From a virus, in IMG/VR virus record IMGVR_UViG_3300025154_000039, positions 1-38,168 of that record: a stretch of 38,168 nucleotides of DNA. One strand, written 5' to 3'. Position 1 is the stretch's first letter; each line of letters opens with the position of its first letter. The notes beneath the pieces were generated by a model. It saw only the letters and a program-made list of their open reading frames with translations. It was not told the DNA's origin and searched no databases. Made by a program: the position numbers and the translations under genes. This document shows, one piece after another, positions 22,176 through 37,367 of this stretch.

Positions 22176-24629
22176 ATGGCCATCAATTGGGGTGAGGTGG
22201 GGGCCGGGGCGTTCGCCGGCGTCCAGCAGGGCGAGGAAATAGCGTGGAAGTCGTTCCAGGCGTCGATGCAGCGCAAGGAACAGGCCCGGCTCGAGCGGCA
22301 GACGGCGATTGCCGAGGCGGAAAACGCCCGGAAACAGCAGGAATTTGACTTAACCGGTCCAATTCGTCAGTTGGTGGTCGAAAACCAGACCGCCAGCATG
22401 CAGGCCGGCCAGCGGCGCGCGGCGGCGCGTGCCGTCACCGACTTCTCGCAGCGCTTCAACCCCAACGGAGTGGATGTTTCACTGGATTTGATGACGATTG
22501 GCGCGCCCGGGGCGGCGCCGAATGGTGCTGCAGCAGCAGCCGGCGCGCCCGTAGCGCGCGCGATCGAGCCGGGCCAGCCGGTGCCGCGCCCGGCCCCTGC
22601 CGCGCCCCCTGCAGCCGTGCGGCCCGCGCCGCCGCCGGTTTCCGCGCCAGCCCCTGCCGTGCGCACCGCGCCGGCTGCGGCAGGCGCTCCGCCGGCGCCA
22701 GCCCCGCGCTCTGCGTCGGGTATCCCGGTAATCCAGCTGCGCGGCGGCGGCGGCCAGGGCGAGGCCGGCGGTCCCCCGGAACTGCCAACCTTCCAAGCCA
22801 ACGACAGTCGGCTTGTGCACCAGATGATCATGGATATCCCCGGCCTGACCGGATCGTCCTTTGCCCGCCAGCGCGAGCTGTACGCCAAACTGGGCGGCGA
22901 GGCCGTCAACGGCCCGTACCGCGGTTCCACACAGCAGAACCTGTGGATGCGCGGCCATATCGTCAGCAACAGCTACCAGCAGGCCCTGCAGCAGGAATCC
23001 GGCGGCCAAGGACCTGCCGCCCCGGCTCCGGCGGCGGCGCCGGCGGAAGCAGCAGCCCCTGCCGCGCCCGCCCCGGCAGCGGTTGCCATGCCGGAAAATG
23101 AGTTTTACTACCCGCCGGCGCCGATGGCCGGAAGTTTGGCGGAGGGATTGGTTGACCTGTCGGCCGCGCCGCCGGGGACCGTGCCAGCGCAGGAGCCGCC
23201 GGCCGCGCCTGATGGCCGCGCCCCGGAGATCCCGGACAGCATATACCGGCAGGACCTCTACCGCGGGATGCTGGACCAGAAGCGCCAGTTCGAACAGGAT
23301 CAGCAGGAGTGGGAGCAGCAGCGTCAACAGGCGGAGCAGGATGATTTTCGCTCGCGATACCCGGAATATGCCATGAGTATATCGGTGGGAGGGCTCAATA
23401 TTGACATCCAATCATTTGAAGAAGCGGTGCAGCAGCATTACAAAACATTGCAGCTCGCCGCACAGACCAACACAATTTTGAGTAATACCGATTTGCTCAT
23501 GTCGGCGCAAGGATATCGTAAAGTTAAAGTGTCGCGTGACGGTTCTATTACCTATGAAAATAGCGAAGGGAATCAAATCGGGATGAATGATAATGATTAT
23601 CGTTTGCTCGATACGGTACAACAGGAATACGGTGTTGAAGACCAGCAAACTGGACGATTGGCTGGGCAAGTGCCATTTTCTGTCTATCAAATGTTGGTGT
23701 CACAAGTTGGTAATCTGCCAGGCTTGGTTCGATATGAACTTGACCCTATCACAAAAATACCTGTTATTGGCGACGATGGTAGGCCAAGATTATTATTTGT
23801 TAATGGAGATGTTATGTTGGATGTGGAGGCATTAGCGGCAACGTCGGCGCGTGGAAGACAACTCCGTGAAAATAACCAGAGGTCAGTTACATCGAGTATT
23901 TCCGCTGAACTTGGCCGGTTCCGTGACGAACAGCCGCCCGATAATTTACTGCAGCAGCTTGCGCAACGGCACAACACAGCGTTCCCTGACAATGAGTGGA
24001 CAAAGGATGACATACTTGCGCAGTGGAACGGGATGGTTATCAGTACGGAAGAACGTCGGGTAATGGATCAAGCCAAGCAAAATGCCGCATATCAGCGATC
24101 AGTTAATCTGGCGCAGCTCAGAGATTCCATTCGGGATGAAAATGTGGTACAGCAACATGACTTCCAGCGCAGTATGCAGGATTTGCGCTCGGCGGGCCGG
24201 GCAAGCGGATCGGTTGTACGTTCGAGAACGGGACGTCCGGAAGTGAATTATGATGAGTATTATCGGACCCGTGAGAATATTGAGGCGTTGGTCGGTCGGG
24301 TTGATCATTATGCGAACGTTGATGAAAGAGGGAGATGGGATGGAACGATAAACGATCAGGCCCCGATCTATTTGCAGGAAATATGGAATACCCCGGAGAT
24401 CCAGCGGGCGCTCATACGCTACACCGAACGCGACGGTAGCCGCCATTCAATGGCCACTGCCAATCCCGGTAACGCGGTGATACTGGACGAGGTGCGGACT
24501 GTTTTGGCGCGCTATCTGCCAAATAGCCTGTTCAATGCCCCAGCTGGGAGCGGGCGCGGCGCGCGGGGCGCGGCGGCGGGCACGTCAGCGGCCGCCAGTC
24601 AGGCGGCGCTGGCCGCGATGGGGCTCTGA
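22176..24629 (+). CDS. Internal virion / ejection protein 2 (probable)
   Basis: 817 residues. The N-terminal 100 residues form a charged, Gln-rich coiled coil (K-E-Q-A-R-L-E-R-Q). Two Pro/Ala-rich disordered linkers lie at about 113-178 and 270-300. The remainder is helical with another Gln/Glu-rich coil (about 365-395). Position between two ejection-type genes parallels T7 gp15. Base composition changes sharply: 22500-22760 is very GC-rich while about 23370-24330 is much more AT-rich, so the C-terminal half may come from a different source. Confidence 0.6.
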   Translation: MAINWGEVGAGAFAGVQQGEEIAWKSFQASMQRKEQARLERQTAIAEAENARKQQEFDLTGPIRQLVVENQTASMQAGQRRAAARAVTDFSQRFNPNGVDVSLDLMTIGAPGAAPNGAAAAAGAPVARAIEPGQPVPRPAPAAPPAAVRPAPPPVSAPAPAVRTAPAAAGAPPAPAPRSASGIPVIQLRGGGGQGEAGGPPELPTFQANDSRLVHQMIMDIPGLTGSSFARQRELYAKLGGEAVNGPYRGSTQQNLWMRGHIVSNSYQQALQQESGGQGPAAPAPAAAPAEAAAPAAPAPAAVAMPENEFYYPPAPMAGSLAEGLVDLSAAPPGTVPAQEPPAAPDGRAPEIPDSIYRQDLYRGMLDQKRQFEQDQQEWEQQRQQAEQDDFRSRYPEYAMSISVGGLNIDIQSFEEAVQQHYKTLQLAAQTNTILSNTDLLMSAQGYRKVKVSRDGSITYENSEGNQIGMNDNDYRLLDTVQQEYGVEDQQTGRLAGQVPFSVYQMLVSQVGNLPGLVRYELDPITKIPVIGDDGRPRLLFVNGDVMLDVEALAATSARGRQLRENNQRSVTSSISAELGRFRDEQPPDNLLQQLAQRHNTAFPDNEWTKDDILAQWNGMVISTEERRVMDQAKQNAAYQRSVNLAQLRDSIRDENVVQQHDFQRSMQDLRSAGRASGSVVRSRTGRPEVNYDEYYRTRENIEALVGRVDHYANVDERGRWDGTINDQAPIYLQEIWNTPEIQRALIRYTERDGSRHSMATANPGNAVILDEVRTVLARYLPNSLFNAPAGSGRGARGAAAGTSAAASQAALAAMGL

Positions 24630-24630
24630 C

Positions 24631-27600
24631 ATGGCGCTTGACCAGGCGCGCCTGCAGCGCGGCTACGAGGCATTCAGCAACGTCTACCGCGAGCGCGGCG
24701 AGGAACCGCCGTCGTTCGATCAGTTCTCAGCCCGATTCCAGAACGCCGCCCCGCCCGCGCCTGCGGCACCACCGGAGGCGGCCGCGCGCCCGGTCAGCGA
24801 CGTTGCCCGGCTGGCTGGCGAGGCGGCGGACCGGCATGGCGTCGATGCCCGGCTGGTTGGCGCGGTCATCCTGCAGGAGAGCGGCGGCCGGCATTATGCC
24901 GATCGCGGGCGGGTCCTGACCTCGCCAGCCGGCGCGCGCGGGCTGATGCAGCTCATGCCCGGCACCGCGCGGGGTCTCGGGGTTGACCCGGACGACCTTG
25001 CCCAGAACATTGACGGCGGGGTGCGCTACCTGCGCCAGCAGCTCGATACCTTCCACGGCGATGTCCCCAAGGCCGTGGCGGCGTACAACGCCGGCCCGGG
25101 CAATGTGGAGAAGTACCGCGGCATCCCCCCGTTCCACGAAACGATCAATTACGTGCGGAACGTGATGTCCACATACCGCCGCGTGACCGGTGAAACCAGT
25201 GGTGGCGGCGGGCAGGCGGCCGTCCCCGCGCCGGCCACCGCCGACTTCACAGCGCCGGCCGCCGAGGCGGCCCCGCGCACGCGCACTTTCACCGTGGCCG
25301 GTTATCACGCGATACAGCGCGGTGACACGCTTGGCGCCATTGCCGCGCGCTACGGTTCCACGGTGCAGGATATGGCCGATCTGAACCAGATTCCCGACCC
25401 GAACCGCATCAATGTCGGGCAGTCGTTGATGATCCCGGGCGGCCAGGGTGGCCCGCGGCGGCAGCCCCAGCGGCAGGTTACGGTACCACTCACCACGGGT
25501 CAGCGATTTGCCTATGGCAATGAGGCCCCTGGGACCATGGCGCGTGATCAGCGAGCGCGGGAAAACGTTGATATTGCGGTGCGCGCGGCAGCTGAGGCAG
25601 AGATGCCATCACTGGGGGCAACTGTCGCGGAACCGTATATTGACGCATTTCGCGATGTGGCCGCCGGCAGCGGTCAAGCCGGGCAAACGGCCGCGGGTGC
25701 TGTCGAATGGGCGGGTAATCGGCTTGGGTTATCACCTGAAGATTGGGATATTGTCCGCCGGGTACGGAGAAACAGTGAAGATCTGATCAGCGTCGCTCCG
25801 CAAAACCCGACCTTGGCTGACAAATTCATCATGAATTTGCCGCTGACGATGGCCATGATGGCAATACCGATCGGTGGAGCCGGCGCGGCGGCGCGCGTCG
25901 CCACGTCATTTGGTGCTGGCGCAATAACTGCGGGGCTGGCCGGCGCCACAGTAGGACCGGCTCTTGGCCGCCTATTCGAATCAGTGACCGAAGCTGGCGA
26001 CACCTACAATGAGGCGTTGCGAAGTGGTATGACGAAGGAACAGGCATCGGAGGCGGCACGAAACACCTATACCGGAAACATGCGTTTGTATGGCCTTGAT
26101 GTGGCCGAATTCGCCACGGCCTTTGCCGGGAGCGTTGCACCGCAGTTACGCGTGCTCAATGGGCTGAGCAAGATATCGCGCGCTGACCGGGCCATGATCG
26201 GGGTGGCCCGCTTTGTCACCAGTGCCGGTCTCGAAGGAATGGAAGAGGTCGAACAATACCGGATTCAAAGTGAATCGTTGGGCCAGCGAGAAAATGCTGC
26301 TGACCGGCGCGAATCATTCATTCTCGGGGCGCTCACGGGTGGCGTATTCAGCACGGTTGGTGCGGTCCATGAGGCGCTGCAACGTAATCCACAAAGCATC
26401 ACTGACGCATTTACTGAAGGAAATCAGCCGTTTATCCCGCCACCGTCCTCAGGTGATGGCGTTACTGTCGGCACCATGGGAACCAGCTACGGGCGATCAC
26501 AGCAGGCAGCCCCACCCGCGGCCCCTGGCGCGGCGGCGGTGACCGATCTGCGCACCGCCCCGGCCACGGATGAGCAGCGGATCGCCCTGCGGGAGATTGG
26601 CCGTCAGGATCTGGAAATTGACGGGATGAGCAGGGCTGAGGCGGGCGCGATCATCACCCGGCAGATGGACCAGCCGACCGCGCACACTTTGAAAAATCAG
26701 GCCGAAATTGAAAATTCACGGCCGCAGGTTTCAGAAATTGCAACGCCACAAAATGCGAGTGAAGACGATATTAATGAGCGAATGACGCGTTGGGTTCGTC
26801 GGGCTGCGCTTGAGGCTGGCGGCAAGGCCACGCTGCAGGATATCGCTGCAGAAGGGCTTACACCCAACCAGGTGAGCGGATCATTTTGGCGGGATACTTT
26901 CTACCAGTTGCCGCGTGAACAACAGCGGTGGTTCTGGAAAAATGTCGCAACTTCCTTGGGCGACAGCACCATGCCAATCCCGACCATAGACAATCCGGTT
27001 GTTGTTGGTACTCAGCATGGTAAACCAATTATGGCGGTCAGCCCGGCGGAGGCAGCAGAATTTGCCGGGATCGGTGATAGGGTCGAGTTTCTACAGGGTG
27101 AGGAACGCGGATATGTTGCCTTGTTGTATGAGGCAAATAAGAAAATTTCGCAGGGAATGCAACGTGAAACGGAAACCGCCAGTATAACCAGACAGGTAGA
27201 ATCGCCAAGCCCTGACCGTGAAAGCACAGTTCAGCAACTGACTGCGGAAGAAAACACGACAATCACCGAAACGAACGATTTGCGTGCACTCGAACAGATG
27301 CGCGAAGCTGCGGCGCAGGGAAACCTACAGTATCATGTCGATGCGATTGATAAACAAATTAGCACGCTTCGAAACCAGTATGCGGTAAATGATTTTATTG
27401 ATTACGTGTCAAGAGTTTTAGATAACAGCAATAAAACTCCGAAGATTATAGGCAAAGTGAAGGACACCGAAGCTGCGCGTATCAAAGAAATTTCCGGGGT
27501 AGATGTTTCCGGATTATCCCATGAGATTCGACCCGATTACATAAAGCACATGCTCAATGAGCATGGTGACTCGGTTAAAGAGGCTAAACGCGGTCAGTTG

Positions 27601-30600
27601 CCAGTAACAAGGGATGACATTACGCGCATACCTGAAATTCTCGATTCATACGATAAAATAATTCCAGGGAAGAAGGGGAATAATCCCTCAGTCGTCTACG
27701 TGAAAAAGTTCAACGGAACAACGTATTACGTGGAACGGATCATCAGTAATCCGAAAAACAAAAAACCAAGAATGAGTGGCGTGACGATGTACAAAAAGCC
27801 CACGCCATCCGACGGGAACAATGCCGTTTCCGGCTCTGTTCATACGCCCAAAGCAGCCGCAGGCGGGGCTACCAGAAGTATACCACAGGTCGGCGAAAAG
27901 TCAACAGGATCGGTGTCCCCGGCCGCACCGCGTTCGGGGAATAAATTCAGTAGTGAACGCGGGGCGATCAATCCCGACCTGCTGGTTCCGCCACCAGTGC
28001 GCCGCGCGGTCGAGGCGATCCGTGACGGGGTGGGGAGTGTACGCGACCACGTGTTTGAGATCGGAAAATCGGCGTATCTGGCCGGCAAGCGGACCTTCCA
28101 GCCATTCATGCAGCAGATGCGGCAGTGGCTGGGCGATCAATGGGCGAAGGCGGGAAAGTACGCCAGCGCCGCCTATTCGAACGCGCACCGGTGGTATCAG
28201 GTGTACGCCAAGCAGTTTGTTTTTGATGAAAGCGGCGAATTCACGCCAGAAAACAAAATCACCCCGGAACAGCGTTTTAACTCGCTGGATGACGAGCAGA
28301 AAGCGCGGGTCGAGCAATTCCGTGCGCTACTCAGCAAACGTTCTTCCGCGAACGGCAAGACCGATCAATCGCGCGCGGCTGCGGGGACGGCTCAGACCGT
28401 TCCGGCGGTGGGCCGGCCATTTGGCCCAGAGGGCCAGCCGCGTAATCAGACGAAGCGCGAGCAGATGGATGAACAATATGCCATGATCGCCGACCCGGCA
28501 AAACGCAAGGAGATAAACCGACAGGTCCAGGAGGCGCAGAAGGATACTGTGCCGGTGGCTATCAGCATGGCCGGCCGGTTGCTGAATCCAATACTTACCC
28601 CGATATCTTCGACGCTGCGCCGGATAAACACCGAACTATTTTCAGCACTCCGCAAGTTTGAATACGGTGTGGTGCAAAATATCAAGCGGCGCGCGGAGGC
28701 GGTAGCCCCTTTCCTTGATGCCATGCGCAAGATGGATGTTCTTGATTACCAGGCGATGGACTTGGCGTTGAAGAACCGCGATGTCGACAAAATTGACCAA
28801 CTGGTGAAGAAGTACGGTATCCGGGACAAATACCTTGCCTATCGCGCGGTATGGAATGAGATATTCGCGGAGGCGGAGGCGGCCGGGTTCGATGTGAGCT
28901 TTCTCGAACAATTTTCGCCGCGGCGGATAAAAGATTACGAGGGGTTGTTGAATGCCCTTATGGATACGGAGGCATTCGGCCGCATTACGGAGGCGCTGGG
29001 CAGGGCTATGGCGCGCAATCCGAACCTGACGCAGGAGGAAAAAGGGGAGATTGTCAACGCCGTGATTCGCGGCTACGGCCAGAACGGCCGGCTGGCGCTG
29101 GCGGAGCCGGGCGCGCTGAAAACCCGGTATGTGGATACTATCACCCTCGACCTGAACAGCTACTACTACGACACGCCGACGGCGGCGCTGAAGTACATCG
29201 AGGATGTCACCGAAGCCATCGAGGCGCGGCGGTTCTTCGGCAAGTCGGCGCAGACGGAAGGGACACGGGTTAACGTCGGGAGCAGCGTCGGCATACTGGT
29301 ACTCGACCTGATTGAAAAGGGCAAAATCAATTCACACCAGCAGAATGAAGTTGCCGACGCGCTGCAGGCGCGGTTCGGTTTCATCAAAACTGACCCCGGC
29401 GTTGCCAAGCTGAAAACGATCAATTATTTTATGACCATCGGCAGCGTGATTTCAACAATCACCCAATTGCAGGATTTGTCCTACAGCCTGTACAGCAACG
29501 GCACGTTTCGCACGGTCACCGCATTGGCCAAGGCGATAAGCAAGAAAAGCGAGATGACCGCAGTTGACCTTGGCATTGAAAAGCCGTGGGAGGAAATGGC
29601 GGACTCCGGCAAGCTCGGGCAATGGCTTGACCGGCTGCTGACCGCCACTGGCTTCAATAAGCTCGACCTGTTGGGCAAGGAAACGCTGATCAACAGCACG
29701 CTGACGAAACTGCGTGCGGAAGCGCAGGCGGGCCGCTTCGGCGCCAAATCGCAGCGCCTGTTGGATGCCGTGTTTGGTGAAGATCAGCGGGCCGTAATTA
29801 ATGACCTGGCTGCCGGCCGGACCACTGATGACGTGAAACTGCTGATGTTCAACCATCTGCTGGACTTCCAGCCGCTGGCGAAGTCAGAGATGCCTATCCG
29901 GTACCTGAATCACCCACAGGGCCGCATATTTTACCAGTTAAAAACCTACACGATTAAGCAGCTTGATGTGTTCAGGCGGGAGGGCCTTGACCTGATCGCG
30001 GAAGGTTCGCGCACGAACGACCGTGTGAAGGTGAAACAGGGGATCGCCAATCTCGGGCACCTGGCATTTGTGATGATGTTATGCGGTATGGGTACGGACT
30101 GGATTAAAGACTGGTTGCTTGGGCGCGATCAGGACCTGTCAGACTATGTGATTGATAATTTCGTCAGGTTGGTCGGCATTAACCGGTACATGGTCAATCA
30201 GTTGCGGACAGATGGCCCGGTCATGGTCATGGCCAAGCTGGCGTTACCGCCGTTTCCCCTGCTTGAACTGCCGGCGCGGGATATTTCATCCATCACCCCG
30301 GCAATCAAGGCTGATATCGACGTCATGGCTGGTAAGTTCGATTTTTCCCGTACCGGTGAGAGTTTTGCTGAAAAATGGGACAAGTTCCGGGTGGTCAATA
30401 TGCAGTCATGGCAGACCATCCCCTATTTCGGGAAGTTGTACTACTGGTGGTTTGGCGGCGGGGCGGCACGCACTGAGAAAAAAGCGGAACTGGAATCACG
30501 AAGGGAAGAGACAGCAGCCAAGCAGGAGGCCCGCGCGGAGGTCATGCAGGGCCTGCGGGCAGGGCGCGCCATGAGCACGGAGATCGCCGCGGCGCGCGCG

Positions 30601-30948
30601 GCCGGGTACATCCCCCGCGGGACCAGTGACGAAGAACTGCGCGCGGAGGCGGCCATGCCGGAAGCGGCGGTCAAGGTGAAGCATATGACCGTTGACCGAG
30701 CCATGGCCTACTGGGCGGAGGCGGACGAGACCACGAAGAAACAGGTGGCGGACGTGCTCAATAAGAAACTGGAAAACGCTGACCTTACCGAAGCGGAGCG
30801 GAAGTGGTATGCGGAGATGATGGGCAGTTATTACCAGCGCAGCGCCCTGTCGCGGTTCCGTGGCGCGCGCAGCGGTGCCGCCAGCAGATTCAGGACCACC
30901 GACCGCCGCCGGCAGCAGTCGTCGCGGTTCCGCAGCAGTGGCGATTGA
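24631..30948 (+). CDS. Giant internal virion protein: transglycosylase, LysM, PBECR-like nuclease
   Basis: 2105 residues from ATG 24631. Residues about 65-185 are a lytic transglycosylase of the SLT/goose-lysozyme type: the catalytic Glu is E83 in L-Q-E-S-G-G, with G-L-M-Q-L-M-P and A-A-Y-N-A-G-P-G-N-V later. A LysM wall-binding domain follows (about 225-269), then a hydrophobic stretch (about 398-450). At about 951-1056 lies a domain matching the PBECR nuclease type of phage polyvalent proteins (Y-I-K-H-M-L-N-E-H-G-D, then V-T-R-D-D-I-T-R-I-P-E-I-L and T-M-Y-K-K). Long helical regions fill the C-terminal half. Like T7 gp16 it would enter the host first, cut peptidoglycan and guide DNA; the nuclease could attack host RNA or rivals. 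The nuclease part is AT-rich and looks inserted. Confidence 0.8.
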   Translation: MALDQARLQRGYEAFSNVYRERGEEPPSFDQFSARFQNAAPPAPAAPPEAAARPVSDVARLAGEAADRHGVDARLVGAVILQESGGRHYADRGRVLTSPAGARGLMQLMPGTARGLGVDPDDLAQNIDGGVRYLRQQLDTFHGDVPKAVAAYNAGPGNVEKYRGIPPFHETINYVRNVMSTYRRVTGETSGGGGQAAVPAPATADFTAPAAEAAPRTRTFTVAGYHAIQRGDTLGAIAARYGSTVQDMADLNQIPDPNRINVGQSLMIPGGQGGPRRQPQRQVTVPLTTGQRFAYGNEAPGTMARDQRARENVDIAVRAAAEAEMPSLGATVAEPYIDAFRDVAAGSGQAGQTAAGAVEWAGNRLGLSPEDWDIVRRVRRNSEDLISVAPQNPTLADKFIMNLPLTMAMMAIPIGGAGAAARVATSFGAGAITAGLAGATVGPALGRLFESVTEAGDTYNEALRSGMTKEQASEAARNTYTGNMRLYGLDVAEFATAFAGSVAPQLRVLNGLSKISRADRAMIGVARFVTSAGLEGMEEVEQYRIQSESLGQRENAADRRESFILGALTGGVFSTVGAVHEALQRNPQSITDAFTEGNQPFIPPPSSGDGVTVGTMGTSYGRSQQAAPPAAPGAAAVTDLRTAPATDEQRIALREIGRQDLEIDGMSRAEAGAIITRQMDQPTAHTLKNQAEIENSRPQVSEIATPQNASEDDINERMTRWVRRAALEAGGKATLQDIAAEGLTPNQVSGSFWRDTFYQLPREQQRWFWKNVATSLGDSTMPIPTIDNPVVVGTQHGKPIMAVSPAEAAEFAGIGDRVEFLQGEERGYVALLYEANKKISQGMQRETETASITRQVESPSPDRESTVQQLTAEENTTITETNDLRALEQMREAAAQGNLQYHVDAIDKQISTLRNQYAVNDFIDYVSRVLDNSNKTPKIIGKVKDTEAARIKEISGVDVSGLSHEIRPDYIKHMLNEHGDSVKEAKRGQLPVTRDDITRIPEILDSYDKIIPGKKGNNPSVVYVKKFNGTTYYVERIISNPKNKKPRMSGVTMYKKPTPSDGNNAVSGSVHTPKAAAGGATRSIPQVGEKSTGSVSPAAPRSGNKFSSERGAINPDLLVPPPVRRAVEAIRDGVGSVRDHVFEIGKSAYLAGKRTFQPFMQQMRQWLGDQWAKAGKYASAAYSNAHRWYQVYAKQFVFDESGEFTPENKITPEQRFNSLDDEQKARVEQFRALLSKRSSANGKTDQSRAAAGTAQTVPAVGRPFGPEGQPRNQTKREQMDEQYAMIADPAKRKEINRQVQEAQKDTVPVAISMAGRLLNPILTPISSTLRRINTELFSALRKFEYGVVQNIKRRAEAVAPFLDAMRKMDVLDYQAMDLALKNRDVDKIDQLVKKYGIRDKYLAYRAVWNEIFAEAEAAGFDVSFLEQFSPRRIKDYEGLLNALMDTEAFGRITEALGRAMARNPNLTQEEKGEIVNAVIRGYGQNGRLALAEPGALKTRYVDTITLDLNSYYYDTPTAALKYIEDVTEAIEARRFFGKSAQTEGTRVNVGSSVGILVLDLIEKGKINSHQQNEVADALQARFGFIKTDPGVAKLKTINYFMTIGSVISTITQLQDLSYSLYSNGTFRTVTALAKAISKKSEMTAVDLGIEKPWEEMADSGKLGQWLDRLLTATGFNKLDLLGKETLINSTLTKLRAEAQAGRFGAKSQRLLDAVFGEDQRAVINDLAAGRTTDDVKLLMFNHLLDFQPLAKSEMPIRYLNHPQGRIFYQLKTYTIKQLDVFRREGLDLIAEGSRTNDRVKVKQGIANLGHLAFVMMLCGMGTDWIKDWLLGRDQDLSDYVIDNFVRLVGINRYMVNQLRTDGPVMVMAKLALPPFPLLELPARDISSITPAIKADIDVMAGKFDFSRTGESFAEKWDKFRVVNMQSWQTIPYFGKLYYWWFGGGAARTEKKAELESRREETAAKQEARAEVMQGLRAGRAMSTEIAAARAAGYIPRGTSDEELRAEAAMPEAAVKVKHMTVDRAMAYWAEADETTKKQVADVLNKKLENADLTEAERKWYAEMMGSYYQRSALSRFRGARSGAASRFRTTDRRRQQSSRFRSSGD

Positions 30949-31630: not shown

Positions 31631-31815
31631 GCGAATCGGCGGCACGCCTGGCGGATGTGCTGTATGGGGTCTACCAGAGCTACGCGGTTCGAATTGGGGT
31701 GCCGGCCCCGCCCGGGCTGGCGGCGGCTGACCAGATTGTGCAAAAGGTGGTGAAACTGCTGGCAACGACGGCAGATACTATGCTCCGCACATTGGCGGAG
31801 AAGGGGAGGATTTGA
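31627..31815 (+). CDS. Small lysis-block protein, 62 residues
   Basis: ATG overlaps the preceding stop (ATGA). Two amphipathic helices around a P-A-P-P-G turn, the second (I-V-Q-K-V-V-K-L-L-A-T-T-A) with a hydrophobic face; no true membrane helix. Position between the holin candidate and the endolysin suggests a lysis role. Not recognised. Confidence 0.45.
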   Translation: MSESAARLADVLYGVYQSYAVRIGVPAPPGLAAADQIVQKVVKLLATTADTMLRTLAEKGRI

Positions 31816-31817
31816 AC

Positions 31818-32675
31818 ATGAGCAAGAAAATGACGATTTGCGTTGACGCCGGGCACGGCGGCGGCGATCCGGGCGCGGTTGGCCGGGTGAAAGAGAAGGA
31901 CGCCAACCTGATCGTGGCCATGGCGCTGCGCGAACTGCTGTGGAAGGACGGCCACCAGGTGGTGATGACCCGCCACGCGGACAACACGGTGGCCCTGATG
32001 GAGCGGGCGCATGTCGCCAACCTGTCGCGGACCGACCTGTTTATCTCGATCCACCACAATGCGGGCGGCGGGGACGGCTGGGAGGCCATCCACAGCGTAT
32101 TCCACGGGGAAGGCAAGTCGCTGGCGGAGTGTATCGGGGCGGAGTTCAGCAAAACGCAGAACCCCCATGGCGTGAGCCCGATTTACGACAAGAAAGGCAC
32201 CCACGGCGGCGACTTCTTCACGGTCATTTCCGAGACCAAAATGCCGGCCATCATCCTCGAATATGCGTTTGTGGACAGCAAGGACGCGGCGGCGATCGAC
32301 TCGGAAGCGGAACTGAAGGGCGAAGCGAAGGCCATCGCGGCCGGCGTGCGGGCCTATATGGTCATGCTGCAGGCGGCGGAGCGCGAGCAGGCGGTGAAGG
32401 ATCGCAACTCACATAGCCCGGTTTCCAAGGGTCTGGCCGAATTCACGGAGACGGCGACGCCCGCCGCGGTTGTTGCTGGTGAATCCGTGGCGAGCACCCC
32501 GGCCCCGGCCGGCAGTACCGATGAACTGGTCAAACAGCCGAAGCCGGAAGAAGCGGAGGCAATGTCGTCCGTAAACGATGACGATCATAAGGCTGATCAG
32601 GCCCCGGCCAAGGATTCGGAGCAGGCCGGAGCGCCCAAGGGCAAGGACAAGTACCAGCGGGGGCGTCGGGCGTGA
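31818..32675 (+). CDS. Endolysin: N-acetylmuramoyl-L-alanine amidase (Amidase_3)
   Basis: 285 residues from ATG 31818; GGGGAGG lies ahead. The zinc ligands H13 (D-A-G-H-G-G), E26 (K-E-K-D) and H79 (S-I-H-H-N-A) and the catalytic E148 (I-L-E-Y-A) are all present, so the enzyme should cut the amide between muramic acid and the stem peptide. The catalytic domain ends near residue 185. The rest is an Ala/Pro/Glu/Lys-rich disordered tail with no wall-binding repeat. Without a signal peptide, access to the wall would be through a holin. Confidence 0.9.
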   Translation: MSKKMTICVDAGHGGGDPGAVGRVKEKDANLIVAMALRELLWKDGHQVVMTRHADNTVALMERAHVANLSRTDLFISIHHNAGGGDGWEAIHSVFHGEGKSLAECIGAEFSKTQNPHGVSPIYDKKGTHGGDFFTVISETKMPAIILEYAFVDSKDAAAIDSEAELKGEAKAIAAGVRAYMVMLQAAEREQAVKDRNSHSPVSKGLAEFTETATPAAVVAGESVASTPAPAGSTDELVKQPKPEEAEAMSSVNDDDHKADQAPAKDSEQAGAPKGKDKYQRGRRA

Positions 32676-34590: not shown

Positions 34591-34821
34591 TTAACGCGTA
34601 GCACTAACAGCAGTAGCGACTTCATCCATGCGTCGCTGAACAACTATTGAAAGTGATTCTCCCATCCTCTTGCGTTCTTCCTCTGTTATTTCCACCCTTG
34701 GAACCCCTACCGCAAGGCAACCACCGCGAATGTCTATTTTCTGATATTCTATCCGGCTCTTTTTGGCACACGGAACAACAGAAGTGTTGGTCGCACTAAA
34801 ACCAAACATTTTCATATCCAT
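34591..34821 (-). CDS. Unknown partner protein of the proteasome-like gene, 76 residues
   Basis: ATG at 34821 starts one base beyond the stop of the upstream Ntn-hydrolase gene, and its GGAGG ribosome site (34828-34832) lies inside that gene's end, so the two are co-translated. The N-terminus M-D-M-K-M-F-G-F-S-A is followed by a two-cysteine beta part and an acidic, then basic C-terminal helix (E-E-E-R-K-R-M). No family recognised. Tight coupling suggests it works with, or is a substrate or regulator of, the Ntn hydrolase. Confidence 0.55.
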   Translation of the reverse strand: MDMKMFGFSATNTSVVPCAKKSRIEYQKIDIRGGCLAVGVPRVEITEEERKRMGESLSIVVQRRMDEVATAVSATR

Positions 34822-34822
34822 C

Positions 34823-35641
34823 TTACACCTCCGGATTGTATGTGTCGTTGTAATACATCTTTCTTTTAACCCACTTGAACCCTTCGTGCTTTGTTATTGC
34901 AGCGACTTCAATTGGTCCACCAACAGTAGGTGCTCCAGGGATGAACCTGTAATACATCGACGCAGTGTACACCAAGAACTCCGCCAAGTCAATAGCATCC
35001 TGTATAGGCATTGCCGGATGGACCAATGCAGCGTCAAAATTGGTGTGAATCTCGTTCATTATAAAATCAATTTGAACTTGCGCAAATCCAATCTTGGTAA
35101 ACACGCCTGATATATCAGGATCATAGCCGAGGACCAATCGTTGTAGAGGTTTAGGTTGTCCATTCCACTTAATGCCCCATGGAAATATCATCTGACTTGG
35201 AATAGGAATGTTGCCTTGTTCTATTTCAACAATCCACTCTTCAGCAAGCATTGAGTTCGATGAATATCCTGAAATCGAAAAGCCAAGAGATGGTTGACAT
35301 CCGGCGCTAATAAAGGTTGAGAAAAACTGGCATGCCTTGTCTACAACTTCCTTAATGGTATAGTTATTCTCATCGATGCCGTATTCTTTTGGCGCGCCTG
35401 ATTCGTCCTTTTCTCCAAGCTTTATACGAAAATCCTTCATCAACGTTGCTACCGATTGGCTACCTATGCCGGCCTCACCCCAAGTCATGTATCCTATGGG
35501 AAGTGTTTTGTATAGATTGATTATTTTGTTCATGCTGTTGTAGACGTTAGCAATTCCACCACCATTCGCCGGTAGAGAACCGGCGCTGTCAGCTGCAAGA
35601 ATTATTCCGTCGTTTACTCGAACTGTCAAAGCTATCGTCAT
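34823..35641 (-). CDS. Proteasome-like Ntn hydrolase (T1 family fold)
   Basis: 272 residues. ATG 35641 is preferred over GTG 35647 because AAAAGGA is seven bases ahead of ATG and only one from GTG. The chosen start gives M-T-I-A-L, so methionine aminopeptidase alone could free Thr2 as nucleophile. From Thr2, the pattern T-x-A-L ... D-G-I-I-L-A-A-D-S lines up without a gap with proteasome beta subunits: Thr2 is T1, Asp18 is D17. K39 in N-K-I-I-N-L fits catalytic K33 after a five-residue insertion, and G-E-A-G follows as in the family. This suggests an active peptidase or amidase, possibly assembling into a ring. The gene is AT-rich compared with the phage body and lies in the lysogeny-expressed strand, as expected for a moron gene. 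Target unknown. Confidence 0.7.
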   Translation of the reverse strand: MTIALTVRVNDGIILAADSAGSLPANGGGIANVYNSMNKIINLYKTLPIGYMTWGEAGIGSQSVATLMKDFRIKLGEKDESGAPKEYGIDENNYTIKEVVDKACQFFSTFISAGCQPSLGFSISGYSSNSMLAEEWIVEIEQGNIPIPSQMIFPWGIKWNGQPKPLQRLVLGYDPDISGVFTKIGFAQVQIDFIMNEIHTNFDAALVHPAMPIQDAIDLAEFLVYTASMYYRFIPGAPTVGGPIEVAAITKHEGFKWVKRKMYYNDTYNPEV

Positions 35642-35667
35642 GGCCACGTCCTTTTATCAAGTCATTT

Positions 35668-35696
35668 ACCATAATATCGGCAACCGATAACACCAA
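35668..35696 (-). promoter_or_regulatory. Promoter with a palindrome in its spacer, for the Ntn-hydrolase operon
   Basis: On the minus strand TTGGTG (35691-35696), a 17-base spacer and TATGGT (35668-35673) form a weak sigma70-type promoter whose start would lie about 20 bases before the gene. The spacer itself (35674-35690) is a near-perfect inverted repeat, TTATCGG-TTG-CCGATAT, an ideal operator position. Which regulator binds is unknown. Confidence 0.4.
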
Positions 35697-35879: not shown

Positions 35880-35987
35880 TTAGAATGTACTCGATGCCGG
35901 GGCCGCCGCTATTGGACGGTTCAGCATCTGCTGGTACTGCGCCGGGGTGATGACGCCAGCGGCGACGGTTATTGGTTTGGCAACCAT
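35880..35987 (-). CDS. Candidate 35-residue protein after the lipoprotein gene
   Basis: ATG at 35987 lies inside the last codons of the lipoprotein gene in another frame, and TAA is at 35880-35882, just before the terminator. The peptide has V-A-A-G-V-I-T-P-A-Q-Y-Q-Q-M-L, a pattern like the ends of small phage proteins. No clear ribosome site, so coupling would be needed. Confidence 0.35.
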   Translation of the reverse strand: MVAKPITVAAGVITPAQYQQMLNRPIAAAPASSTF

Positions 35988-36673
35988 TGAGTACTGCCAC
36001 ATGGGCAAATTGCTGAATTGTCATTACTCGGCATCGTGCATATTCTGCACCGGAATTTTGACTGGTTAGCGACCACCTCATTATCAATATACATGTTCAT
36101 TTCTTCCCGGTGCCGCACGATAAATGGCCTGTTGTCTTCGTTGCATTCTTCTGTCTGTGTAAATTCATCACCACAATAAGTGCATTTGGTTTGAGATTCT
36201 GTGGCAGGAGCGCCGCATTTATCACATTGATAATCGTATTTTCCTTGAGCAAGTTTTGCCGACAGTTTTTTACGCTCTCTCTGTCGTATAATAAGCCGTC
36301 GTTTTAGTTTATAGACATAGTAATATTGTTTTGCATAATAGAGTACCCCGTTATTGCAAAATACTGATGAGTTGCCGCGTGTCATGAAAATCAAATAGGA
36401 ACAAAGAACTGCCGCAGCAATAACGAATGAATATTTATTTTTGGCTACCCCCTCGACGATTCCGCTGCGAGTATCGATTCCATACCAAGAGTAATAATAG
36501 GATGGACTTATTGGCATTGGTCTAATTGTCCTGTTTGACGTTGCAAAACGTGTGGTAGGTGTCCTCGTTGATCTTGCAGAACTTGTGATGGATGACCGTT
36601 CTGACGCACATCCAAGCATCATAATAATTATAGCGACAAACAACGTTAGTATTTCGTTCTGTAGTTTGTTCAT
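35969..36673 (-). CDS. Lipoprotein with membrane segment and two zinc ribbons, expressed with the repressor
   Basis: 234 residues; ATG overlaps the stop of the repressor gene, so it is made in the lysogen. The N-terminus ends in the lipobox M-M-L-G-C (C22). A Ser/Thr/Arg-rich linker and a second hydrophobic segment (about 81-97) follow, then a basic helix (about 122-142). Two zinc ribbons follow: C150/C153/C164/C167 and C209/C212/C223/C225. It is AT-rich. Position directly behind the repressor is typical of superinfection-exclusion or lysogenic-conversion genes; this role is inferred. Confidence 0.6.
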   Translation of the reverse strand: MNKLQNEILTLFVAIIIMMLGCASERSSITSSARSTRTPTTRFATSNRTIRPMPISPSYYYSWYGIDTRSGIVEGVAKNKYSFVIAAAVLCSYLIFMTRGNSSVFCNNGVLYYAKQYYYVYKLKRRLIIRQRERKKLSAKLAQGKYDYQCDKCGAPATESQTKCTYCGDEFTQTEECNEDNRPFIVRHREEMNMYIDNEVVANQSKFRCRICTMPSNDNSAICPCGSTQWLPNQ

Positions 36674-37311
36674 AGCATCGATCGGTGGATGCCTATTACC
36701 TTTAGCATCTTGACGATTTCCTTGGCGTCGACGACGCGCGGGGGGTATTTCGGGTTGGCGGAGAGCAGCGCGTATTGCTCCGGGCGCTCGCGGGCTCCCA
36801 TGAACTGGACGCGCTTCAGGGCGAGGCCCAGAGCGTCCACCATGACAACCACCATGTCGTTGTTCTTGATCCGGTAGTTCTGCGAGAAGAAAACCATGTC
36901 GCCGTCGTGAACTTCTGGATCCATGGAATCGCCCTTGATGCGGATTGCTCCGGCTTCCGGATCCGGGCAGAGGTCGGAGGAAGCGTTTTTGTATTCGTCG
37001 ATGCAGGCGTCAGGATGTTCGGTAAATTTTCCGGCGGAGCAGGCAGTGTTATATACTGGGATACGGTACATCTCGTTGCTGATTGCTACTGGTATCATTA
37101 GATCTTTTACCATAGGGAAATCAATCAGCTCTGAAGGTGGGACACCTAACGCAAGTGCGAGTTTAGAAATGTACGCTATCTTGGGTTTTCGTTTACCAAG
37201 TTCGTACTGACTAATAGTTGCGTGAGATATTCCAGTCAACTTCTCAAGATCAAGTGTTGTCATTTTACGCAGTGCGCGCAATTGACGTAACTTCTTATCT
37301 ATGTTGTCCAT
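36670..37311 (-). CDS. CI/LexA-type phage repressor
   Basis: 213 residues from ATG 37311, chosen for the upstream AAAGG and because the helix-turn-helix begins shortly after. N-terminal HTH (T-T-L-D-L-E-K-L-T-G-I-S-H-A-T-I-S-Q, about 18-35). C-terminal S24 peptidase domain: cleavage site A93-G94 in C-S-A-G-K-F, nucleophile S129 in G-D-S-M, and K166 in A-L-K-R. All parts for RecA-stimulated self-cleavage are present, so induction by DNA damage is expected. It faces the rightward early promoter across a 96-base control region and is followed by an overlapping lipoprotein gene. Confidence 0.92.
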   Translation of the reverse strand: MDNIDKKLRQLRALRKMTTLDLEKLTGISHATISQYELGKRKPKIAYISKLALALGVPPSELIDFPMVKDLMIPVAISNEMYRIPVYNTACSAGKFTEHPDACIDEYKNASSDLCPDPEAGAIRIKGDSMDPEVHDGDMVFFSQNYRIKNNDMVVVMVDALGLALKRVQFMGARERPEQYALLSANPKYPPRVVDAKEIVKMLKVIGIHRSML

Positions 37312-37330
37312 TGTGAAAAACCTTTGGGAA

Positions 37331-37367
37331 AGTGATCCAAATGGCGCAAAAATACTTGACAATCACT
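37331..37367. promoter_or_regulatory. Candidate repressor operator half-sites
   Basis: AGTGAT (37331-37336) and its inverted copy ATCACT (37362-37367) are 31 bases apart centre to centre, about three helical turns. The second copy lies immediately after the -35 box of the rightward promoter. On the minus strand TTGTCA (37357-37362) overlaps the rightward -35 box and could serve a weak repressor promoter. All of this is pattern only. Confidence 0.35.

Follow-up and report, generated by a model that had tools for sequence, protein, structure and literature searches.

What a temperate phage would gain from a proteasome-like hydrolase, and why the gene for this enzyme should be followed by one for a tiny protein, is the question raised by the minus-strand locus 34591-35641 of the virus record IMGVR_UViG_3300025154_000039. 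The window analysed is the whole stretch of 38,168 nt (positions 1 to 38,168 of the record), in which an integrase, a DnaC-like loader, a portal protein, an endolysin and a CI/S24 repressor indicate a temperate phage; no near relative of the window DNA was found among deposited phages. The enzyme gene (34823-35641, minus strand, 272 amino acids) and the partner gene (34591-34821, minus strand, 76 amino acids) are placed between the endolysin (amidase) gene that ends the late/lysis region (31812-32675), which lies on the opposite, plus strand, and the minus-strand gene of a CI-like phage repressor composed of an HTH and an S24 peptidase domain (36670-37362). The enzyme gene has a GC content of 43% compared with 57.7% for window positions 1-34000, and the count of 22 G/C among the 60 nucleotides of 35221-35280 given in a preliminary description of the locus is exact. 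This is a cargo (moron) layout, and the earlier description of the pair as a phage moron is borne out by its position and by the AT-richness of the gene. A further gene in this area (35969-36673, minus strand, 41% GC) has a 4-base overlap with the end of the repressor gene and encodes a 234-amino acid zinc-ribbon protein whose N terminus has a hydrophobic segment; this gene is itself a candidate for lysogenic conversion. Elsewhere in the window, the plus-strand gene 24535-30948 encodes a 2137-amino acid virion protein with a lytic-transglycosylase-like domain at its N terminus, for which no phage record gives good coverage.

The enzyme begins with the sequence MTIALTVRVNDGIILAADSAG. The Shine-Dalgarno sequence AAAAGGA (35649-35655, minus strand, read from the sequence) is spaced 7 nt from ATG 35641 and only 1 nt from the upstream GTG 35647, and the aligned relatives begin at a matching Met-Thr or Met-Ser. 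ATG 35641 is thus the right start, as had been proposed from the ribosome spacing, and GTG 35647 is rejected on the same spacing and on the conservation of the start. Threonine directly follows the start methionine and, as the preliminary description also held, there is no cleavable propeptide. A promoter belonging to the pair, claimed in the same description, was not confirmed: on the minus strand near the start, the only good sigma-70-like match (35629-35601) is located inside the gene; a dedicated promoter just upstream of the enzyme gene was rejected accordingly. An RNA element at the locus was considered and rejected.

The AlphaFold2 model of the enzyme, built with 50 sequences, has a pLDDT of 91.7 and a pTM of 0.89 and shows the alpha-beta-beta-alpha fold of the proteasome type. 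Foldseek matches the model to 20S proteasome beta subunits with a probability of 1.00 and an E value of 5.6e-10, and also to phage proteins termed proteasome beta type-2 and HslV-like. With VIA-align the best structural match is Anbu, the ancestral beta subunit (5nyw; Z 19.7, rmsd 3.4 over 205 residues), followed by 20S beta5 with Z ~19. Thr2, Asp18, Lys39 and Gly55 of the enzyme correspond to Thr1, Asp17, Lys33 and Gly47 of the proteasome. The alignment with the Thermoplasma beta subunit (1pma) places Thr2 on Thr1, Asp18 on residue 17 (a glutamate there) and Lys39 on Lys33, and the GGPIDVA strand of the enzyme on GGMIDVA; Gly55 falls at the Gly47 position once the loop is given a two-residue insertion, which is our own reading of the alignment. 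Asp18, Lys39 and Gly55 are invariant in an alignment of 50 short-form sequences (see below), with Met1 and Thr2 conserved in at least 90%, and residue 2 is threonine in 150 of 157 relatives, serine in six and alanine in one, the last being a contig-end fragment that is probably mis-started. The conservation of these residues and the beta-subunit alignment therefore describe a complete and conserved catalytic set. The model and the alignments taken together make it almost certain that the enzyme has a proteasome-like fold with an intact catalytic set, and hydrolase activity would be expected of it. The earlier proposal of a proteasome-like Ntn hydrolase is upheld by both: a structure search finding no Ntn fold, or relatives lacking Thr2, Asp18 and Lys39, had been named as grounds for abandoning it, and neither was encountered.

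To place the enzyme, profile and structure comparisons were needed. Single-sequence searches gave no Pfam, NCBIfam or PADLOC match and only a chance match in the PDB, and a scan of viral contigs with the single enzyme sequence found no close relatives. The enzyme does match one PHROG of unknown function (phrog_5990, E 1.2e-21), and single members of the family match Pfam PF00227 (Proteasome) weakly, at best with 8.9e-05. An alignment-based scan recovers 168 relatives from viruses and at least 498 from genomes, with approximately 60 of the same short length as the window enzyme and 35-49% identical to it. A tblastn search against phages and plasmids recovers longer relatives of 400-430 amino acids, which have in common with the enzyme M1, T2, A16, D18, S19 and K39 and the C-terminal pattern TVGGP-V-G-W-RK-Y. 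The tree separates this long form from the short form, to which the window enzyme belongs, with full support, and the long form adds approximately 100 residues in the helix-1/helix-2 region. The tree mixes phyla, for example placing Helarchaeota with a Proteobacteria bin, a pattern that a mobile gene should give but that errors in binning can also produce.

Fuchs, Alva and Lupas (2021; PMC8665760) defined the classes PMI-1 to PMI-6 (Proteasome homologs with Multiple Insertions) and reported 22 families of proteasome homologs without a function, finding no genomic context suggestive of one. The PMI classes resemble the enzyme in the proteasome-like core, the Thr/Asp/Lys/Gly set, the lack of a propeptide and the segment between helices 3 and 4, and the enzyme group is distributed as broadly over bacteria and archaea as PMI-2 and PMI-4 are. 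The short form fits PMI-2 and the long form PMI-4, as judged solely from the description in that paper with the helix numbering being our own. Table 1 of the same paper reports PMI-4 in phages but not PMI-2, and no gene context was found there for any of the new classes, whereas the short form described here is carried by a phage and has a tiny protein as its partner. Against the 20S beta subunit, with which the enzyme has in common the fold, Thr1/Asp17/Lys33/Gly47 and the C-terminal GG-(I/V)-D-V-A strand, the differences are the lack of a propeptide and of an alpha partner gene, the replacement of Ser169, which precedes the GG strand, by Val240, and the insertion of a further 40 residues between helices 3 and 4, where the model has the additional helices 177-183 and 188-202 between helices 164-171 and 213-232. 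Anbu, for all its structural similarity, is only 11% identical and has a different gene context. HslV is accompanied by an adjacent HslU ATPase, whereas nothing HslU-like is found next to the enzyme in the window and no neighbor of this kind recurs around the relatives. PPH (Fuchs 2021) is likewise a phage-borne proteasome homolog, but has approximately 140 residues and lacks helix 2, where the 272-residue enzyme has two helices. In the model, helix 96-108 is present, residues 76-95 form a short loop and the helix-1/helix-2 region is without a long insertion.

In the window the partner gene begins one base past the enzyme stop codon, and its Shine-Dalgarno sequence GGAGG (34828-34832, minus strand, read from the sequence; 6 nt spacing) overlaps the last enzyme codons, an arrangement indicative of translational coupling. 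Nearly all short-form relatives are directly followed by an ORF of 45-70 amino acids (~130 in Acidobacteria) with its own Shine-Dalgarno sequence, which 65 of 82 short-form entries have ahead of the partner start, and the ORF often overlaps the last enzyme codons by the same 8 bases. When one rule is applied to all ORFs, a small ORF lies directly downstream of 59/73 short-form and 77/84 long-form relatives compared with 206/1202 control ORFs, taken as the other ORFs of the same loci. Of the 56 partner pairs that could be compared, 52 show more synonymous than nonsynonymous change, and Ka/Ks, where it is defined, is mostly 0.05-0.3. The small ORFs are thus genes, and a chance ORF is rejected on this evidence of purifying selection. 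The downstream tiny gene is a conserved partner of the enzyme gene at the level of sequence and is described here for the first time; the two-gene pair postulated in the preliminary description from the window thus recurs across the family. In E. coli H3 the small ORF carries no annotation, and missing annotation of this kind may be why no genomic context was reported in PMC8665760.

Many short-form partners have a core resembling P-x-Y-x-Y-Q-x(3-8)-G/S-x-S/T (the YxYQ...GS-like motif). The simplified motif [YF]x[YFH][QR] occurs in 23 of 61 partners compared with 1.7 expected; the highest count reached in 1000 shuffles is 8. The window partner (P0002) carries IEYQKIDIRGG, of the pattern IEYQ(x)5GG, and is a divergent member of the short-form group: against a partner profile built without it, it scores a weak 7.1 bits, second of 2001 when ranked with its own shuffles. 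The long-form partners are equally tiny and of other sequence, and the strict motif is not seen there. Similarities among enzymes and among partners correlate (Mantel rho 0.245, with 0/1000 permutations as high). The suggestion that the small protein is a partner or substrate of the enzyme is in line with this co-divergence and with the conservation of the gene, and the small protein probably acts directly on the enzyme. In a one-chain prediction of enzyme and partner, at a locus where the two are in frame (L014), the partner is unstructured (pLDDT 35-65) and no docking is seen; lone small proteins did not align to the fused rows in MAFFT. The Acidobacterial loci L106, L108, L111, L112 and L142 have longer, mutually similar partners of ~130 amino acids; four of these loci have a serine nucleophile instead of threonine, and L142 is frameshifted or fragmentary.

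The pair occurs in phages, phage satellites, plasmids, bacteria and archaea, with one copy per genome in all 19 genomes checked. The short form is found in 1/104 genomes of one bacterial family and 1/200 of another, and the long form in 22/5426 E. coli genomes and 13/50,697 phage records, most of the latter being Streptococcus prophages or satellites. Relatives are located between the antiterminator Q and methylase/lysis genes, adjoining lysis genes in a Stenotrophomonas phage and 3' of the lysin in Javan85; in an E. coli prophage that carries RecE/RecT, the long-form gene is next to the repressor. In Javan468, a Streptococcus satellite phage of 9.9 kb (L196, 3986-5355), the enzyme and a 58-amino acid protein are the last two genes and are likely satellite-carried cargo. 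The neighbor scan identified no third gene recurring around the pair beyond small groups of close relatives. The pair is therefore rare, patchy and found at cargo positions of temperate elements, and we hold with high confidence that it is a conserved two-gene mobile unit. In E. coli Res13-Sevr-PER07-33 (L173, 6787-8190) the long-form gene is directly downstream of the prophage HTH repressor gene and ahead of RecE/RecT, a location that rex-like superinfection-exclusion genes occupy. On conjugative Rhizobium plasmids (L008, 2930-8106; L011) the long-form gene lies ~1.5 kb from multiubiquitin-domain and ThiF/E1-like genes, which constitute a ubiquitin-like conjugation operon.

The neighbors of short-form genes include integrases, endolysins and PemK/MazF-like toxins, and some match PADLOC families, for example HEC-01, AbiLi, a type II restriction enzyme and a phospholipase effector. 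PADLOC families number 97 around short-form genes and 36 in random regions of 14 host genomes, the latter mostly generic; because these are un-normalized counts of families and not of proteins, the association of the pair with defence genes is graded as suggestive only. PADLOC has no match for the small protein, as for the enzyme, and no report of a defence role for such proteins was found in the open-access literature searched.

The best explanation as a whole, to which we assign a probability of approximately 45%, is a self-contained two-gene cargo cassette in which a threonine hydrolase and a tiny regulator or substrate benefit the lysogen. The first product is an N-terminal nucleophile hydrolase similar to proteasome beta and Anbu that would be made active without a propeptide, removal of Met1 presumably exposing Thr2 as the catalytic N-terminal threonine. 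The second, translated from a Shine-Dalgarno sequence inside or beside the end of the first gene, is a tiny, fast-evolving, motif-bearing protein that probably works with the enzyme. Its likeliest mode would be to dock there as a propeptide supplied in trans, an inhibitor or an adaptor; otherwise it would be a dedicated peptide substrate. As a moron between the lysis genes and the repressor, the pair would most likely be of use to the lysogen or the mobile element. Stress or a second infection could then activate or release the protease to cut a host or phage protein, resulting in superinfection exclusion or abortive defence. That the pair serves defence or host control on the lysogen side falls slightly short of even odds. 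The preliminary description thus stands in what it observed, the promoter excepted, and its interpretation is supported in part. A more tentative proposal is that the pair amounts to a novel immune or host-control system with two components, carried by temperate phages, satellites and plasmids: a proteasome-like hydrolase lacking a propeptide would be held or aimed by a tiny fast-evolving companion acting as a phage sensor, trans-propeptide or dedicated ligation substrate.

Three other explanations have to be weighed against this cassette. The small protein could be purely a dedicated substrate that is cut, or ligated to another protein, at the YxYQ...GS-like motif to give a signal or modifying peptide. 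Connectase, a highly specific relative of proteasome beta that has become a ligase (PMC8665760), sets a precedent for such non-degradative chemistry, and the tiny partners vary around a short common motif. However, far fewer than half of the short-form partners show the strict motif clearly, it was not seen in the long-form ones, and the two-helix insertion of connectase between strands 3 and 4 (S3/S4) is absent from the enzyme model, in which no helix is found between residues 18 and 49. We consider this explanation unlikely, though the strongest of the three. An addiction pair akin to a toxin-antitoxin system, with a toxic protease and a small-protein inhibitor stabilizing the mobile element and having no part in defence, would account for the two genes, the tiny second protein, the tight translational coupling and the patchy spread on prophages, satellites and plasmids, but the small protein of the window has no known antitoxin domain and we judge this the more doubtful of the two. 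Proteases serve phage head maturation, so that a maturation or housekeeping enzyme that processes capsid or tail proteins and has its own chaperone might also be envisaged; the enzyme gene of the window, however, is on the strand opposite to the structural genes and adjoins the repressor, and its relatives are found in chromosomes, plasmids and small satellites, which makes such a role highly improbable.

Of most use is the finding that the two genes form a real and widespread unit in this protein group. For the families left without function or context in PMC8665760, the tiny partner gene is the first handle on this group, and it points to targets for co-expression, deletion and substrate searches. 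The enzyme-partner pair is possibly a simple case of a threonine protease under the control of a separately encoded tiny protein. A proteasome-type enzyme now stands among the cargo that temperate phages, satellites and plasmids carry, where functions in defence and lysogeny collect.
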